Assembly (NCBI GenBank): GCA_016281495.1
Contig: JAEEIU010000038.1
Location: forward strand, 124,001 to 188,000
Reading direction: 5' to 3'
DNA: 64,000 nucleotides
Origin: Treponema sp.
GTDB lineage: Bacteria; Spirochaetota; Spirochaetia; Treponematales; Treponemataceae
A program made the translations under genes and the position numbers. The notes below the pieces were generated by a model. That model did not search any database. It saw nothing but the letters and a program-made list of their open reading frames with translations, and was not told the origin of the DNA. This document shows, in pieces, positions 34,900-41,504 of the stretch (position 1 is the stretch's first letter; every line of letters starts with the position of its first letter).

Positions 34900-34929
34900 T
34901 TGACATTCAAGGGGCTAATTCGATATAAT
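34900..34929 (+). promoter_or_regulatory. Promoter of tRNA-Leu
   Basis: TTGACA at 34900-34905, an 18-bp spacer and TATAAT at 34924-34929; predicted start near 34936, 8 bases before the tRNA. Confidence 0.8.
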
Positions 34930-34943
34930 ATATCATACTATCT

Positions 34944-35027
34944 GCCCGGATGGTGGAATTGGTAGACACGCTAGTTTCAGGTACTAGAGCCAGTAATGGT
35001 GTGCAAGTTCAAGTCTTGTTCCGGGCA
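34944..35027 (+). tRNA. tRNA-Leu (anticodon CAG)
   Basis: 84 nt with the long variable arm of class II tRNAs. Acceptor GCCCGGA closes with TCCGGGC, the anticodon stem CTAGT / ACTAG encloses TTCAGGT (anticodon CAG), and the T-loop is TTCAAGT. Discriminator A. It is the last chromosomal-type gene before the CRISPR region. Confidence 0.95.
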
Positions 35028-35031
35028 CTCA

Positions 35032-35057
35032 CCGCTTCATTTACTTGGGGCGGTTTT
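35032..35057 (+). terminator. Terminator of tRNA-Leu
   Basis: ACCGC and GCGGT form a 5-bp stem with a ~14-nt loop followed by seven T residues. Confidence 0.7.
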
Positions 35058-35097: not shown

Positions 35098-35239
35098 AAA
35101 AAAAAAGAGGAAGCCGTGGCTTCCCCTTTGCATTTTAGAGCTATCTATATTCACGTAAAGGAATATCAATGAATATAAAAGCATTTTACGGAAACTTAAA
35201 GTTTCCTTGTTAGCAGGTTGACTAGAAAAATTAATCAGT
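35098..35239 (-). ncRNA. tracrRNA of the type II-C CRISPR-Cas9 locus
   Basis: The anti-repeat occupies 35209-35238: on the minus strand CTGATTAATTTTTCTAGTCA onward is complementary to the first ~29 bases of the repeat in crRNA sense, with a mismatch or bulge at the AGCA/GCGG position. A promoter is in place upstream: TTGACA (complement of 35269-35274), 17 bp, TAAAGT (35246-35251), giving a start at about 35239, the first base before the anti-repeat. Downstream come a hairpin GGAAACT / AGTTTCC (35190-35206), a second ATATTCA / TGAATAT (35147-35176), and a terminator stem GGAAGC / GCTTCC (35109-35124) followed by nine T. Predicted length about 142 nt. Confidence 0.88.
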
Positions 35240-35245
35240 AATTTA

Positions 35246-35274
35246 ACTTTACATCTTTTTAACAGTTTTGTCAA
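35246..35274 (-). promoter_or_regulatory. tracrRNA promoter
   Basis: Minus strand: perfect TTGACA (35274-35269), 17-bp spacer, TAAAGT (35251-35246). Confidence 0.7.
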
Positions 35275-35336: not shown

Positions 35337-38300
35337 ATGAGATTAAACAAATGGCGTTTAGGCTTAGATTTAGGAACGAATTCAATTGGATGGAGCGTTT
35401 TTTCTTTGGACAGAGAAAACGCTGTTGAACAACTGATAGACATGGGCGTGCGTATTTTTTCTGACGGAAGAGATCCCAAAACAAAAGAACCTCTCGCCGT
35501 AGAACGAAGAAATGCAAGATCTCAAAGAAAACTCATTTACCGCAGGAAATTAAGAAGGAAACAGGCATTCAGATTGTTGCAATCTCAGGGACTTTTTCCC
35601 ACAAGAAAAGAAGAATGCATGGCTCTCAAATCATTAAATCCATATGAATTACGAATAAAAGCCCTTGACGAAAAACTTGAGCCCTTTGAACTAGGTAGAG
35701 CCCTGTTTAATCTAGCGGTAAGGAGAGGCTTTAAAAGCAATAGAAAAGATGGTAGCCGAGAAGAAACAACAGAAAAGAAAAATTCTGATGAAATAAAATC
35801 TCAAGCTGACATGCAGAGTAATCTTGAAAAAGCTATAAAAGAAAGCAACTGTAGAACAATAACAGAATTCTTGGTCATGAATGAAAAAGAAAACAAAGGA
35901 TTAAGATTTGTTCCAGGCAGAATGACTTACTATCCGACCAGAAAAATGTATGAAGAAGAGTTTGCCCAAATACAAAAAGAACAAATAAATCATTATCCAG
36001 ACATTGACTGGGATGCAATTCATAAAGCCATTTTTTATCAACGACCATTAAAAGCTCAAGCACGCGGATATTGCATTTTTGAAAATGACAAGGAAAGAAC
36101 TTTTAAGGCGATGCCTTGCTCACAAAAGCTTAGAATCCTACAGGATATAAAAAATCTTGCTTATTATGATTCTGCCAAGACAAAGAAAGAGCTTAATGAT
36201 GATCAGGATCATATCTTATATGAACTTTTTAATTCAAAAGATAAGATTTCTTTTGACCAGATCAGAAAAGCTCTTAGTCTTTCTGAAAACAACAGTTTTA
36301 ACCTTGAGGAAAACAGGGAATTCCTTATTGGTAATCCCACAGCGGTTAAAATGCGCAGCAAGAACCGTTTTGGAAAGCTTTGGGATGAAATTCCATTGGA
36401 AGAACAAGACCTAATAGTTGAAACTATAATTACTGCAGATGAAGATGAGCAGGTTTTAAAAGTATTGGAAAAATACAATCTTTCTCAAGAACAAAAAGAT
36501 TTTATAGTAAAAAATACTATACTACAGACTGGAACTGCAATGATCTGCAAAGAAGTTTCAGAAAAACTAGTAAAACGATTGGAAGAAATAGCTGATTTAA
36601 AATTTCATGAAGCCGTGCAATCGCTGGGTTATAAATATGCTGATCAGAGTGTGGAAAAATGCGATTTGCTACCCTATTATGGCAAAATCTTGACAGGTTC
36701 AACAATGGGCGTAAATCCATCTGAACCAGAGTCAATGCCAGAAAAAAGATATGGCAAAATAAGTAACCCGACTGTTCACGTAGCCTTAAACCAGACTCGT
36801 GTTGTTGTGAATGCATTGATCAAAGAGTATGGAAAGCCAAAGCAAATCGCTCTAGAATTAAGTCGGGATCTTAAGAACAGCGTACAAGAACGCGCTGAAA
36901 TTCAGAGAAAACAAAATCAAAGGGCCAAAGAAAACATTGTTATAAATAATACAATCGGAGAACTCTATAATACAGTATATCCAGGAAGAACATTCTATCC
37001 AAATAGAAATGACCGATTAAAATACAGGTTGTGGAAGGAATTGGGATTGGGAAACAAATGCCTCTATTGCGGGAAAGGTATAACAGCATCAGAGCTTTTT
37101 ACCAAAGAAATAGAAATTGAACATATCCTCCCCTTTAGCAGAACTCTTCTTGATGCTGAATCAAATCTTACCGTTGCCCATTCTTCATGTAACGCCTTTA
37201 AAGCAGAACACTCACCTTTTGAAGCATTTAGTTCAAATCCAAAAGGCTATAATTGGAGTGAAATAGTTGCCAGAGCCAATTTATTAAAGAATATATCAAA
37301 GAAGAACAAGTTTTCTCCTACAGCAATGGAAAGCTTTGAAAAAGATTCAAGTTTCATTACAAGACAGCTTTCGGACAATCAGTATATTGCAAAAGCTGCT
37401 CTCCGTTACTTAAAATGTCTTGTTGATAATCCTGCCGATGTTTGGGCCACAAATGGAAGCATGACAAAGATTCTAAGAGACAAATGGGAAATGGATTCTA
37501 TTCTTTGCCGCAAATTCACAGAAAAAGAAGTTGCATCCCTTGGTTTAAAACCTGAGCAGATAGGAAATTATAAGAAAAACCGCTATGACCACAGGCATCA
37601 TGCTGTAGATGCCGTTGTTATTGGCCTTACAGACAGAAGCCTTGTACAAAAGCTTGCGACAAAGAATTCTCATAAATCAAACAGAATTGAAATACCCGAA
37701 TTCCCGATTTTGCGAGCTGATTTGATTGAAAAGGTTAAGAAAATTGTCGTAAGTTTTAAGCCTGACCATGGTGCAGAGGGTAAGCTTTCTAAAGAGACTT
37801 TACTGGGAAAGATAAATGTACACGGAGAGGACAAATATGTCTGCCGTCAAAACCTTGTAACTCTTTCTGAGAAGAATCTAAATGACATTGTTGATGATAA
37901 GATAAGAAAAGATGTCATTGACTATGTTTATAACCATAAGGGAGAAAAAATTGATTCAATTCTGACGAAATTTTCAAATAAAACCGGAATTAAAAAAGTC
38001 CGTTGTATAAATCGTGTTCAGACACTAATAGAAATAAACTCCAATGGAATATCACGTTATCTGGCACCTGAGGACTATTTTGCCGCTATTATATGGGAAA
38101 TACCTGGAGAAAAGAAAACTTATAAAGCACAATATATAAGACGAAATGAAGTAGAAAAAAATGAAAAAGGCCAGAACGTTGTAAAACAGGAAGTATTAAC
38201 TAAGGGAAAACCTCATCCTGCCGCAAAACAAATATGCATGCTCCATAAAGATGATTATTTGGAGTTTACAGATAAAGGGAAAATGTATTTGTGTAGAATA

Positions 38301-38516
38301 GCGAGCTTTTCTGCAACAAACAATAAAATAGACATACGTCCAATTTATTCTGTAGCAGATAATTCAGATTGGATTTATTCTACAAATGAAACAATGCTAT
38401 CTGGATATTGGAAACCTATATCTGGTCATAACTGGATTTCTGTGAATGTTATGTTTTCACTGCTCAATGCACACCCGGTAACAGTTTCTCCAATTGGAAT
38501 AGTTCATCGGAAATAA
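35337..38516 (+). CDS. cas9: Cas9 endonuclease, type II-C
   Basis: 1059 residues, in the compact II-C range. RuvC-I is GLDLGTNSIGWSVF with Asp11. An Arg-rich bridge helix follows (RRNARSQRKLIYRRKLRRKQ). RuvC-II is QIALELSRD with Glu507. The HNH core is IEHILPFSR with catalytic His596; RuvC-III is YDHRHHAVDA with His755 and Asp758. All nuclease residues are intact. A CLYC pair precedes HNH and a third Cys lies in SSCNAFK, suggesting a zinc-bound HNH. DHRHHAVDA and the ending VSPIGIVHR recall alphaproteobacterial II-C Cas9 (Parvibaculum type). The gene is AT-rich compared with flanking genes; one sampled line (36181-36240) has 16 G/C in 60 bases. cas1 follows. Confidence 0.97.
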   Translation: MRLNKWRLGLDLGTNSIGWSVFSLDRENAVEQLIDMGVRIFSDGRDPKTKEPLAVERRNARSQRKLIYRRKLRRKQAFRLLQSQGLFPTRKEECMALKSLNPYELRIKALDEKLEPFELGRALFNLAVRRGFKSNRKDGSREETTEKKNSDEIKSQADMQSNLEKAIKESNCRTITEFLVMNEKENKGLRFVPGRMTYYPTRKMYEEEFAQIQKEQINHYPDIDWDAIHKAIFYQRPLKAQARGYCIFENDKERTFKAMPCSQKLRILQDIKNLAYYDSAKTKKELNDDQDHILYELFNSKDKISFDQIRKALSLSENNSFNLEENREFLIGNPTAVKMRSKNRFGKLWDEIPLEEQDLIVETIITADEDEQVLKVLEKYNLSQEQKDFIVKNTILQTGTAMICKEVSEKLVKRLEEIADLKFHEAVQSLGYKYADQSVEKCDLLPYYGKILTGSTMGVNPSEPESMPEKRYGKISNPTVHVALNQTRVVVNALIKEYGKPKQIALELSRDLKNSVQERAEIQRKQNQRAKENIVINNTIGELYNTVYPGRTFYPNRNDRLKYRLWKELGLGNKCLYCGKGITASELFTKEIEIEHILPFSRTLLDAESNLTVAHSSCNAFKAEHSPFEAFSSNPKGYNWSEIVARANLLKNISKKNKFSPTAMESFEKDSSFITRQLSDNQYIAKAALRYLKCLVDNPADVWATNGSMTKILRDKWEMDSILCRKFTEKEVASLGLKPEQIGNYKKNRYDHRHHAVDAVVIGLTDRSLVQKLATKNSHKSNRIEIPEFPILRADLIEKVKKIVVSFKPDHGAEGKLSKETLLGKINVHGEDKYVCRQNLVTLSEKNLNDIVDDKIRKDVIDYVYNHKGEKIDSILTKFSNKTGIKKVRCINRVQTLIEINSNGISRYLAPEDYFAAIIWEIPGEKKTYKAQYIRRNEVEKNEKGQNVVKQEVLTKGKPHPAAKQICMLHKDDYLEFTDKGKMYLCRIASFSATNNKIDIRPIYSVADNSDWIYSTNETMLSGYWKPISGHNWISVNVMFSLLNAHPVTVSPIGIVHRK

Positions 38517-38564
38517 TCTCTTTCTGCAATCAAATATTTGATTATTTATGCCGAAAAAATAATT

Positions 38565-39485
38565 GTGCTGAATAGAGTAATAGAGATTGCAGAAGAAAAC
38601 CGCTATCTTTCTCTAAAGCGTGGCTTTATGGTCGTCCAGCAGGGTGAACAGGAACTAGGGTCTGTACCATTGGACGATATTGCCGTTCTATTGCTTTCTG
38701 CACAGGGCATTACAATTACTAAAAATGTTTTAAATGCGCTATCGGAGCAAGGCTGCATCACTATTTTCTGTGGTTCAAATTATAAACCGGTCAGTATGGT
38801 TTTACCCATAGCAAGTCATACCTATTTTACAAAAATAATAAAAACACAGATAAATGCATCAGAACCTTTTAAAAAGAGAATCTGGCAGCAAATTGTCATT
38901 CAAAAAATAAAAAATCAGGCTTTAAGCCTCAAATACTGCAAAAGAGAAGATAACATTACCCTTGTTGAAAAAATTTCCAGAATGGTAAAATCCGGTGATC
39001 CAGATAACCGTGAAGCCTATGCAGCAAGAATGTACTGGAAATCTTTATTTGGAGACTCTTTTAAGCGGGACAAGGAGGGAGATGGCATTAATTCGTTTTT
39101 GAACTATGGATATGCCATAATGCGGGCAGGAATGGCAAGGGCAATATGCGCACACGGTTTAATTCCATCCCTTGGCATACATCATGATAACAACATGAAT
39201 CAATTTTGTTTGGCCGATGATTTTTTTGAAATATACAGGCCCATCGTAGATACCTTTGTTTATAAGCTTTTTGAAAATGGAGAAACAGAACTATCACCAG
39301 ACAACAAGAAGTTTTTGGCAACTATACTAAAAGTTAATGTTCATACTTCAGAAGGAGAGACAACTGCCGTTCAAAGTATGCAATATATGATGTCTTCTTT
39401 TGTAAATGCATTAGAAGAAGGGAAACCGGACATTGAATTACCCATTTGGGAAGGAAATGAAAATGGAATTACCATTATTGAATAG
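38565..39485 (+). CDS. cas1: Cas1 integrase, type II
   Basis: 306 residues from a GTG at 38565. That start aligns best with type II Cas1, which begins a few residues before the first strand (VIEIAEENRYLSLKRGFMVV); a TTG at 38538 would give 315 residues. No clear ribosome-binding site is seen for either. The conserved catalytic region includes EAYAARMYWKSLFG (Glu), ICAHGLIPSLGIHHDNNMN (His) and CLADDFFEIYRPIVD (Asp/Glu). With Cas2 it integrates new spacers. It starts 48 bp after cas9 and overlaps cas2. Confidence 0.95.
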   Translation: MLNRVIEIAEENRYLSLKRGFMVVQQGEQELGSVPLDDIAVLLLSAQGITITKNVLNALSEQGCITIFCGSNYKPVSMVLPIASHTYFTKIIKTQINASEPFKKRIWQQIVIQKIKNQALSLKYCKREDNITLVEKISRMVKSGDPDNREAYAARMYWKSLFGDSFKRDKEGDGINSFLNYGYAIMRAGMARAICAHGLIPSLGIHHDNNMNQFCLADDFFEIYRPIVDTFVYKLFENGETELSPDNKKFLATILKVNVHTSEGETTAVQSMQYMMSSFVNALEEGKPDIELPIWEGNENGITIIE

Positions 39486-39798
39486 GTATGAGCTTATGTG
39501 GATGATTGTTTTGTTTGATTTACCAGTCATTGAAAAAAAAGAAAGAAAGGACGCAAGTGATTTTAGAAAATTCCTTCTAAACCATGGTTTTTCCATGATT
39601 CAATACTCAATTTATACCAAGCTTTTTTCCGGCAAAGATTCTTGTGAAAAATACTATAAAATGATCAAAGAAAACTTGCCAAGAGAAGGAAAAGTCGATA
39701 TTATAACAATTACGGACAAGCAGTATGGCAATATCATCAGTTATCAATCTTCTGAAAAAGTCGAAAAAAAACAGCCTGAACAGCTCACATTATTCTGA
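39463..39798 (+). CDS. cas2: Cas2
   Basis: 111 residues from the ATG at 39463, which has GGAAGGAA 8 bp upstream; the frame is open back to 39433. The first strand MIVLFDLPV has the conserved Asp. FLLNHGFSMIQYSIYTKLFSG and the C-terminal dimer strands follow. It overlaps cas1 by 23 bp. No csn2 or cas4 follows, which makes the locus type II-C. The array begins 68 bp downstream. Confidence 0.95.
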   Translation: MELPLLNRYELMWMIVLFDLPVIEKKERKDASDFRKFLLNHGFSMIQYSIYTKLFSGKDSCEKYYKMIKENLPREGKVDIITITDKQYGNIISYQSSEKVEKKQPEQLTLF

Positions 39799-39807
39799 TT
39801 TTTCCGT

Positions 39808-39868
39808 AAAAAAAATACGCCTGACACAACCTAATTCATTATTTTACAAGAGGTTATATCAGACGTAT
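39808..39868 (-). terminator. Terminator of the CRISPR array transcripts
   Basis: Read on the minus strand (leftwards out of the array): ATACGTCTGA (39868-39859) pairs with TCAGGCGTAT (39824-39815), one mismatch-type G-T. Inside, AACCT and AGGTT pair again. Eight T residues follow (complement of 39808-39815). This places the end of array transcription between cas2 and the first repeat. Confidence 0.75.
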
Positions 39869-40826
39869 TATACCTGATTAATTTTTCCAGTCAACCCGCA
39901 ACGCATCGATACGTTAAATCTTGTAGGTTGAAATTATACCTGATTAATTTTTCCAGTCAACCCGCAACGTATTTTTCCTTGTATTATAAGAAAGAAAAAT
40001 TATACCTGATTAATTTTTCCAGTCAACCCGCAACCGACGACATTACGGGGCTGTCTGCAGTCGCATTATACCTGATTAATTTTTCCAGTCAACCCGCAAC
40101 CACCACCGATGGTTCTTTGTCTCATTGTGAATTATACCTGATTAATTTTTCCAGTCAACCCGCAACACATCATCAGCTTTCACAATTTCTGACCTTATTA
40201 TACCTGATTAATTTTTCCAGTCAACCCGCAACAATAAAGGAGGTAACCTTTACGAAGGTTATATTATACCTGATTAATTTTTCCAGTCAACCCGCAACGA
40301 ACATGGCAGATTTCTACAGCTGGAACATATTATACCTGATTAATTTTTCCAGTCAACCCGCAACTATGCGGACCGTACCAATTCTACACAGAATATTATA
40401 CCTGATTAATTTTTCCAGTCAACCCGCAACATAATAAGTCTTGTTTTCAGCATCAATTGAATTATACCTGATTAATTTTTCCAGTCAACCCGCAACGATA
40501 AGGGAACAAGATTGTATTATTGCTCTATTATACCTGATTAATTTTTCCAGTCAACCCGCAACAAGAAATTGTAACAGTTGTTCCAATGTTCAATTATACC
40601 TGATTAATTTTTCCAGTCAACCCGCAACACAATTGATTCTGAGGGTGTTGAAGTTTCTATTATACCTGATTAATTTTTCCAGTCAACCCGCAACGAAAGA
40701 ATACAACGCTCATATTCGACAATAATTATACCTGATTAATTTTTCCAGTCAACCCGCAACAAAGCATACTAAAACAATACAAGTCGCGGAATTATACCTG
40801 ATTAATTTTTCCAGTCAATTCATTAA
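39867..40826 (-). CRISPR. CRISPR array: 15 repeats of 36 bp, 14 spacers of 30 bp
   Basis: Repeats start at 39867 and every 66 bp to 40791. The first 14 are identical; the 15th (40791-40826) matches only to 40818. All 14 spacers are exactly 30 bp and all differ. The crRNA strand is minus: there the repeat begins GTTGCGGG, complementary to the tracrRNA anti-repeat, and ends GGTATAAT. Within each repeat TTGACT and TATAAT are 16 bp apart, an internal promoter for the spacer that follows. A start 7 bases after the -10 leaves 24-nt guides. The rightmost, degenerate repeat is therefore first in transcription order. Confidence 0.98.
40791..40818 (-). promoter_or_regulatory. Promoter kept inside the degenerate terminal repeat
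   Basis: Minus strand: TTGACT (complement of 40813-40818) and TATAAT (complement of 40792-40797... last repeat bases) are intact while the eight bases upstream, GTTGCGGG in other repeats, read GTTAATGA. Confidence 0.8.
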
Positions 40827-40839
40827 CTTTTTAAAGCTC

Positions 40840-40868
40840 TTGACATACGTATTAAATACGTGTAAAAT
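40840..40868 (+). promoter_or_regulatory. hicAB promoter with palindromic operator
   Basis: TTGACA (40840-40845), 17-bp spacer, TAAAAT (40863-40868). The spacer holds ACGTATT-A-AATACGT (40847-40861), a perfect 7-bp inverted repeat with a one-base centre, as expected for binding of a ribbon-helix-helix antitoxin. Confidence 0.8.
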
Positions 40869-40887
40869 GATGACATGGGGGAACGAG

Positions 40888-41064
40888 ATGACTAAGCTTG
40901 AAATTGAACGGAAGTTCAAGAAAGCCGGCTGGAAAATCGTTCACGGTGCGGCGCATGACCTTGCGGTAAGTCCAACAGGTCAGAAAGTACCGCTTCCACG
41001 CCATGCAGGAGATATACCGACGGGTACAGCTCAAAAAATCCTTAAACAGGGCAACCTGAAATAG
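40888..41064 (+). CDS. hicA: HicA-family mRNA interferase toxin
   Basis: 58 residues from the ATG at 40888, preceded by GGGGG-AACGAG; an in-frame GTA/TTG-type extension to 40840 would run through the promoter. The fold is the small dsRBD-like HicA: KKAGWKIVHGAAHDLAV carries the catalytic His, followed by VPLPRH and GTAQKILKQ. HicA cleaves mRNA when not bound by HicB. It lies directly upstream of hicB and 70 bp from the array end. Confidence 0.9.
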   Translation: MTKLEIERKFKKAGWKIVHGAAHDLAVSPTGQKVPLPRHAGDIPTGTAQKILKQGNLK

Positions 41065-41111: not shown

Positions 41112-41504
41112 ATGAAGTATGTTTATCCTGTTATTTTTGAAGAGGACGATGGGAAAATAGGTGTTACTGTACCTGATATTCCATCAACATTTACATTCGG
41201 AGATGATATGGCAGACGCTATTTACATGGCACAGGATGTCATTGCCATGATGATTGCATCCTGCTATGAGGATGAAGGAAAAGAGCCTCCTAAGCCCAGC
41301 AAAATTGAGGACATAAAGACAACCGGCATAGTCTCTCTTGTTGTGGCGGATACTGATGAATGGCGAAAACTGGTAGACAATAAAGCTATAAAGAAAACCT
41401 TAACCATACCAAGCTGGCTCAACAGAAAAGCAGAAAATGCTGCCATCAATTTCAGTCAAGTTTTGCAGGAAGCCCTCTGTAAGAAACTGAAAATTTCACT
41501 ATAA
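41112..41504 (+). CDS. hicB: HicB-family antitoxin
   Basis: 130 residues. The N-terminal partial RNase-H-like domain (YPVIFEEDDGKIGVTVPDIP, FGDDMADAIYMAQDVIAMMI) binds HicA. The C-terminus (KKTLTIPSWLNRKAENAAIN, then SQVLQEAL) is a ribbon-helix-helix DNA-binding domain, suited to the palindrome in the hicA promoter. TTGGAGG precedes the ATG. It follows hicA by 47 bp; its stop faces the convergent pseudouridine synthase gene 6 bp away. Confidence 0.92.
   Translation: MKYVYPVIFEEDDGKIGVTVPDIPSTFTFGDDMADAIYMAQDVIAMMIASCYEDEGKEPPKPSKIEDIKTTGIVSLVVADTDEWRKLVDNKAIKKTLTIPSWLNRKAENAAINFSQVLQEALCKKLKISL

Follow-up and report, generated by a model that had tools for sequence, protein, structure and literature searches.

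The 64,000-nucleotide window of Treponema sp. DNA analysed here carries a CRISPR-Cas locus in which cas9 (35337..38516, plus strand), a type II cas1 (38538..39485, plus strand) and cas2 (39433..39798, plus strand) are followed by a CRISPR array (39867..40826, minus strand), with a predicted tracrRNA gene (35098..35239, minus strand) lying upstream of cas9 and pointing away from it. The Cas9 is a compact, type II-C-like protein of 1059 aa with RuvC and HNH domains; it matched profile TIGR01865 at 550 bits, as well as RuvC_III and HNH_4, and its best PDB matches by sequence were Cas9 chains of ~1080 aa such as 6jdq and 8ja0. cas1 and cas2 were recognized by profile matches, and all three reading frames are open. 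Judging by gene order and profiles, the operon has the type II-C content of cas9, cas1 and cas2 without csn2 or cas4, the flanking genes having been assessed from their translations, with profile scans for part of them. Two neighbors frame the locus. Just past the tracrRNA terminator lies a tRNA-Leu(CAG) gene (34900-35054, plus strand) with a perfect TTGACA-18-TATAAT promoter and a terminator of its own, and by the old end of the array lies a pair of genes for a HicA-like toxin (40840-41064, plus strand; PF07927) and a HicB-like antitoxin (41112-41504, plus strand; PF15919).

The array has 15 copies of a 36-nt repeat, separated by 14 spacers that are all exactly 30 nt long. Fourteen repeats are identical, and the last, at 40791, is truncated. 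Read on the minus strand, which is the crRNA sense, the repeat is GTTGCGGGTTGACTGGAAAAATTAATCAGGTATAAT, and each copy holds a minus-strand promoter, TTGACT-16-TATAAT, predicted to initiate transcription a few bases inside the following spacer. Type II-C systems of Campylobacter and Neisseria are known to have such promoters within each repeat (PMC3656092), and the “extra” oldest repeat of type II-C arrays has been found to need its promoter but not the ability to pair with tracrRNA (PMC12080349). The window shows the same type II-C pattern of a promoter in every repeat and a mutated oldest repeat, which here (40791..40826, minus strand) has lost its first 8 crRNA-sense bases and kept TTGACT...TATAAT intact. 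That the oldest repeat kept the promoter and lost those eight bases suggests that crRNAs come from the minus strand, and the anti-repeat of the tracrRNA gene therefore has the required sense.

The tracrRNA gene reads, on the minus strand from 35239 to 35098, ACTGATTAATTTTTCTAGTCAACCTGCTAAC first, then two hairpins and then a terminator, giving a predicted primary transcript of 142 nt that is supported by its fold, by a covariance model and by covariation. Its promoter (35246..35274, minus strand) is composed of a −35 box TTGACA (35274-35269), a 17-nt spacer and a −10 box TAAAGT (35251-35246), matches the consensus at 10 of 12 positions and puts the predicted start on base 1 of the anti-repeat (35209..35239, minus strand). 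The anti-repeat is followed by a first hairpin, GGAAACT...AGTTTCC (35190..35206, minus strand), with a stem of 6-7 bp and strong covariation, by a second, also covarying hairpin, UUUAUAUUC...GAAUAUAGA (35144..35179, minus strand), the loop of which is longer than that of most relatives, and by an intrinsic terminator, GGAAGCC/GGCTTCC (35098..35129, minus strand), made up of an 11-bp stem (35129-35104) and a T9 tract. The gene thus has, by sequence and conservation, its own promoter and intrinsic terminator, together with conserved hairpins 3′ of the anti-repeat. The folding energy of the 142-nt RNA was −37.7 kcal/mol (z = −4.9), and no shuffled sequence folded equally well.

A sequence-only reading of this DNA had already proposed such a gene, and the anti-repeat, promoter, hairpins and T9 terminator were each recovered where it had placed them. 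Its claim that the anti-repeat suits minus-strand crRNA agrees with the array promoters and with the pattern of the oldest repeat. It had located the anti-repeat correctly but given it as 35209-35238, one base short of the 31 nt (35239-35209) that we found. It had also described the gene as antisense to cas9, which holds in the sense of the opposite strand, the two genes being divergent and non-overlapping with 98 nt between the predicted tracrRNA start and the cas9 ATG.

The anti-repeat complements the array repeat, pairing with crRNA repeat positions 1-29. The predicted duplex has 29 pairs and one bulged U, and its energy is −43.7 kcal/mol, whereas 2000 shuffled anti-repeats gave a mean of −10.7 and a minimum of −23.9 kcal/mol. 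Both base substitutions in the anti-repeat retain pairing as G-U. In a cross matrix of eight loci, the native pairing of repeat and anti-repeat was usually the best or near the best. Across ten loci, repeat and anti-repeat have co-evolved, with double changes at 5 of the 29 pairs (10 cells, a result matched by 0 of 500 shuffles) and with 97% of cells paired, versus 18-48% in slid controls.

The promoter match by itself is weak evidence, as there were 3 such matches in the region and 1.8 were expected. This near-chance level, together with a decayed tracrRNA copy in a relative (G183, described below), is what could be said for a stray or decayed CRISPR repeat that acquired its promoter and terminator by chance and is no RNA gene. 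Against that explanation, the stems covary, the anti-repeat co-evolves with the repeat, the distance to the promoter is fixed and linkage to cas9 is maintained across the genus. Among 27 distinct sequences, the internal stems showed double changes in 11 of 26 pairs (60 cells, versus 15.0 in shuffled alignments), with 99% of cells paired and covariation far above shuffles and slid controls; this alignment was fitted to the model and hence leans towards structure, but a 12-sequence alignment made without the model agrees with it (double changes in 10 of 33 pairs). The covariation among related loci that had been suggested as a check is therefore strong for stems and anti-repeat alike. In 24 of the 25 distinct loci, TTGACA has its first base 35 or 36 nt ahead of ACTGATT; the one that deviates is an orphan copy whose genome lacks cas9. 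This constant spacing upholds the earlier proposal that transcription would begin with the first anti-repeat base. A stray repeat has virtually no chance of being the right explanation, having already been refuted by the covariation.

Searching 200 genomes of the same genus with the covariance model, to which the window and 11 relatives had each contributed a sequence (12 in all), we found the tracrRNA in 25, or about one in eight, and a Cas9 relative (E ≤ 1e-50) likewise in 25. The two occurred together in 24 genomes (Fisher P about 1e-28, with relatedness ignored). The sole genome with Cas9 only (G101) has just C-terminal Cas9 fragments on its contigs, and the adjacent tracrRNA region is therefore missing. 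In position, too, the RNA is linked to cas9, nearly every copy neighboring the cas9 of its own genome: wherever the cas9 start lay on the fetched stretch, the tracrRNA match was divergently upstream of it, mostly at about 75-130 nt and at up to about 700 nt. At one locus (L009) there is no tracrRNA upstream of cas9 because the contig starts there; the genome in question carries the RNA on a different contig (G016:C189).

When the repeat was searched against the 3.2-Mb genome, the anti-repeat was the sole significant match besides the array (E = 2e-4), the next having E = 0.2. The covariance model gave one strong tracrRNA match in the same genome, at an E-value of 2.4e-22 that is flattering because the window sequence is in the model; the remainder were array repeats and noise. 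Matches in genomes that contributed no sequence to the model are independent of it. Neither search found a second anti-repeat or tracrRNA, and the better anti-repeat elsewhere against which the sequence-only reading had cautioned is absent from the 3.2-Mb genome. The Rfam 15 covariance models gave no match to the tracrRNA even at E ≤ 1, which shows only a lack of coverage for this group of sequences. A pattern search of IMG/VR found no virus-borne copies of the anti-repeat with the pattern used, and a literature search of incomplete coverage found no paper on a Treponema II-C tracrRNA. Taken together, these sequence comparisons lead us to conclude that 35098-35239 almost certainly encodes the tracrRNA of a type II-C system.

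Several relatives depart from the usual arrangement. One genome (G222; 99% complete, 2 contigs) carries an orphan tracrRNA (L063 7997-8122) with fold and anti-repeat well preserved and the −35 box decayed to GTGACA from TTGACA; no Cas9 match was found in the genome, nor any cas1, cas2 or array nearby, and the orphan is either a relic or a reused RNA. In another (G183), the tracrRNA is present twice (L043 140-256 and 1501-1626), with 1.4 kb between the copies and similar sequence flanking each; the distal copy has a decayed anti-repeat and promoter. In a third (G002; L017 896-3963), cas9 is split over several frames, by either pseudogene formation or assembly error, and a run of N interrupts the tracrRNA. 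At L016 (6295-14094), cas1, cas2 and the array form a block with inverted orientation with respect to cas9 and the tracrRNA; inside the block the array still runs towards cas2, as though everything had moved as one module. A match to Rfam RF02975 (DUF3800-XI RNA; L016 9873-9922, 67 bits, gathering threshold 38) lies in the stretch that separates cas9 from the inverted array, close to the probable breakpoint of the inversion.

The broken cas9 and the orphan tracrRNA in such nearby relatives, and a −10 box (TAAAGT) that is weaker in the window than in most of them, raise the question of whether the gene, though a true tracrRNA gene, might be silent or nonfunctional in this genome. This seems very unlikely, given that cas9, cas1 and cas2 are open in the window, that 14 repeats are identical and that neither of the two substitutions in the anti-repeat disrupts its pairing.

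Transcription, RNase III processing, Cas9 binding and cutting are inferred here from known type II-C systems. The housekeeping promoter would start the RNA of ~142 nt on the first anti-repeat base, heading away from cas9. Since every repeat has its own minus-strand promoter, short crRNA precursors would begin inside each spacer, and each would end in a repeat able to pair with the anti-repeat. RNase III would then trim the crRNA:tracrRNA duplex, Cas9 would bind it by way of the two hairpins that follow the anti-repeat, and the spacer would be used to locate and cut matching phage DNA. In Streptococcus pyogenes, a long form of the tracrRNA represses the cas genes as a natural guide. The window tracrRNA gene lies opposite the promoter region of cas9 at a distance of 98 nt, and a similar additional role might be imagined for it; this is extremely unlikely, as the conserved start on the first anti-repeat base leaves no 5′ guide sequence and the sequence upstream of the start varies among relatives.

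Spacer 3 (window 40035-40064) offers one candidate target, matching IMG/VR contig 3300033463_000523 at 30 of 30 positions (L067 208-247). The protospacer lies inside a 664-aa open frame, which by position and look may encode a phage structural protein, and its 3′ flank in the crRNA sense is GGGTTACC. This was the one full match among the seven spacers scanned in IMG/VR; a 20-base match of another spacer extended to only 23/30 overall and was set aside as probably due to chance. We found no convincing self-targeting spacer in the genome itself and no convincing spacer match in phage and plasmid records. A single convincing target among the spacers is too little for deriving a PAM.

At the cas2 end of the array, a conserved, covarying hairpin that is probably a terminator (39808..39868, minus strand) abuts the newest repeat downstream in the crRNA direction, between the array and cas2. 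A long hairpin with a T-rich tract was present at the cas2-array junction in all 11 loci examined (the window, L009, L010, L012-L016, L019, L020 and L034), with compensatory double changes in 10 of 15 stem pairs. We see about even chances that this terminator is an insulator, stopping RNA from the newest-repeat promoter and array read-through from going antisense into cas2-cas1-cas9; alternatively, the hairpin may be an adaptation (leader) signal. An insulator, if that is what it is, would be a built-in answer to the problem made by having promoters in every repeat, and it would sit at the acquisition end, whereas previous study has concerned the old end. The work on the extra repeat dealt with terminators upstream of the array, at its old end (PMC12080349), and our literature search, which was incomplete in coverage, found no paper on terminators at the newest-repeat end.

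The tracrRNA described here is an ordinary part of a standard type II-C system; everything about it fits published type II-C biology, and it leaves knowledge of CRISPR unchanged. What it offers is a well-supported tracrRNA that can serve directly as guide-RNA scaffold for a family of compact type II-C Cas9 proteins from gut and rumen Treponema, a family outside Rfam coverage, and the covariance model allows such loci, and orphan copies, to be found.

Among the closest known systems is that of Treponema sp. JC4 (L011), whose Cas9 is 80% identical to that of the window. JC4 and the rumen Treponema MAGs have the same RNA fold and promoter spacing, and most share the gene order, L016 with its inverted block being different; the loop of the second hairpin is longer in the window and its nearest relatives than in most of the others. 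The type II-C systems of Campylobacter jejuni and Neisseria meningitidis resemble the window in having cas9-cas1-cas2 only, a promoter in every repeat, an array transcribed opposite to the cas operon and a separate tracrRNA with its own promoter (PMC3656092, PMC3936727), but their sequences differ, and the C. jejuni tracrRNA lies downstream of the array (PMC4607530), whereas that of the window is upstream of, and divergent from, cas9. Treponema denticola shares the genus name and a Cas9-based system but is listed as II-A, with a Cas9 of 1395 aa, an extra Csn2-type protein and the repeat GTTTGAGAGTTG... (PMC4607530), all unlike the window.
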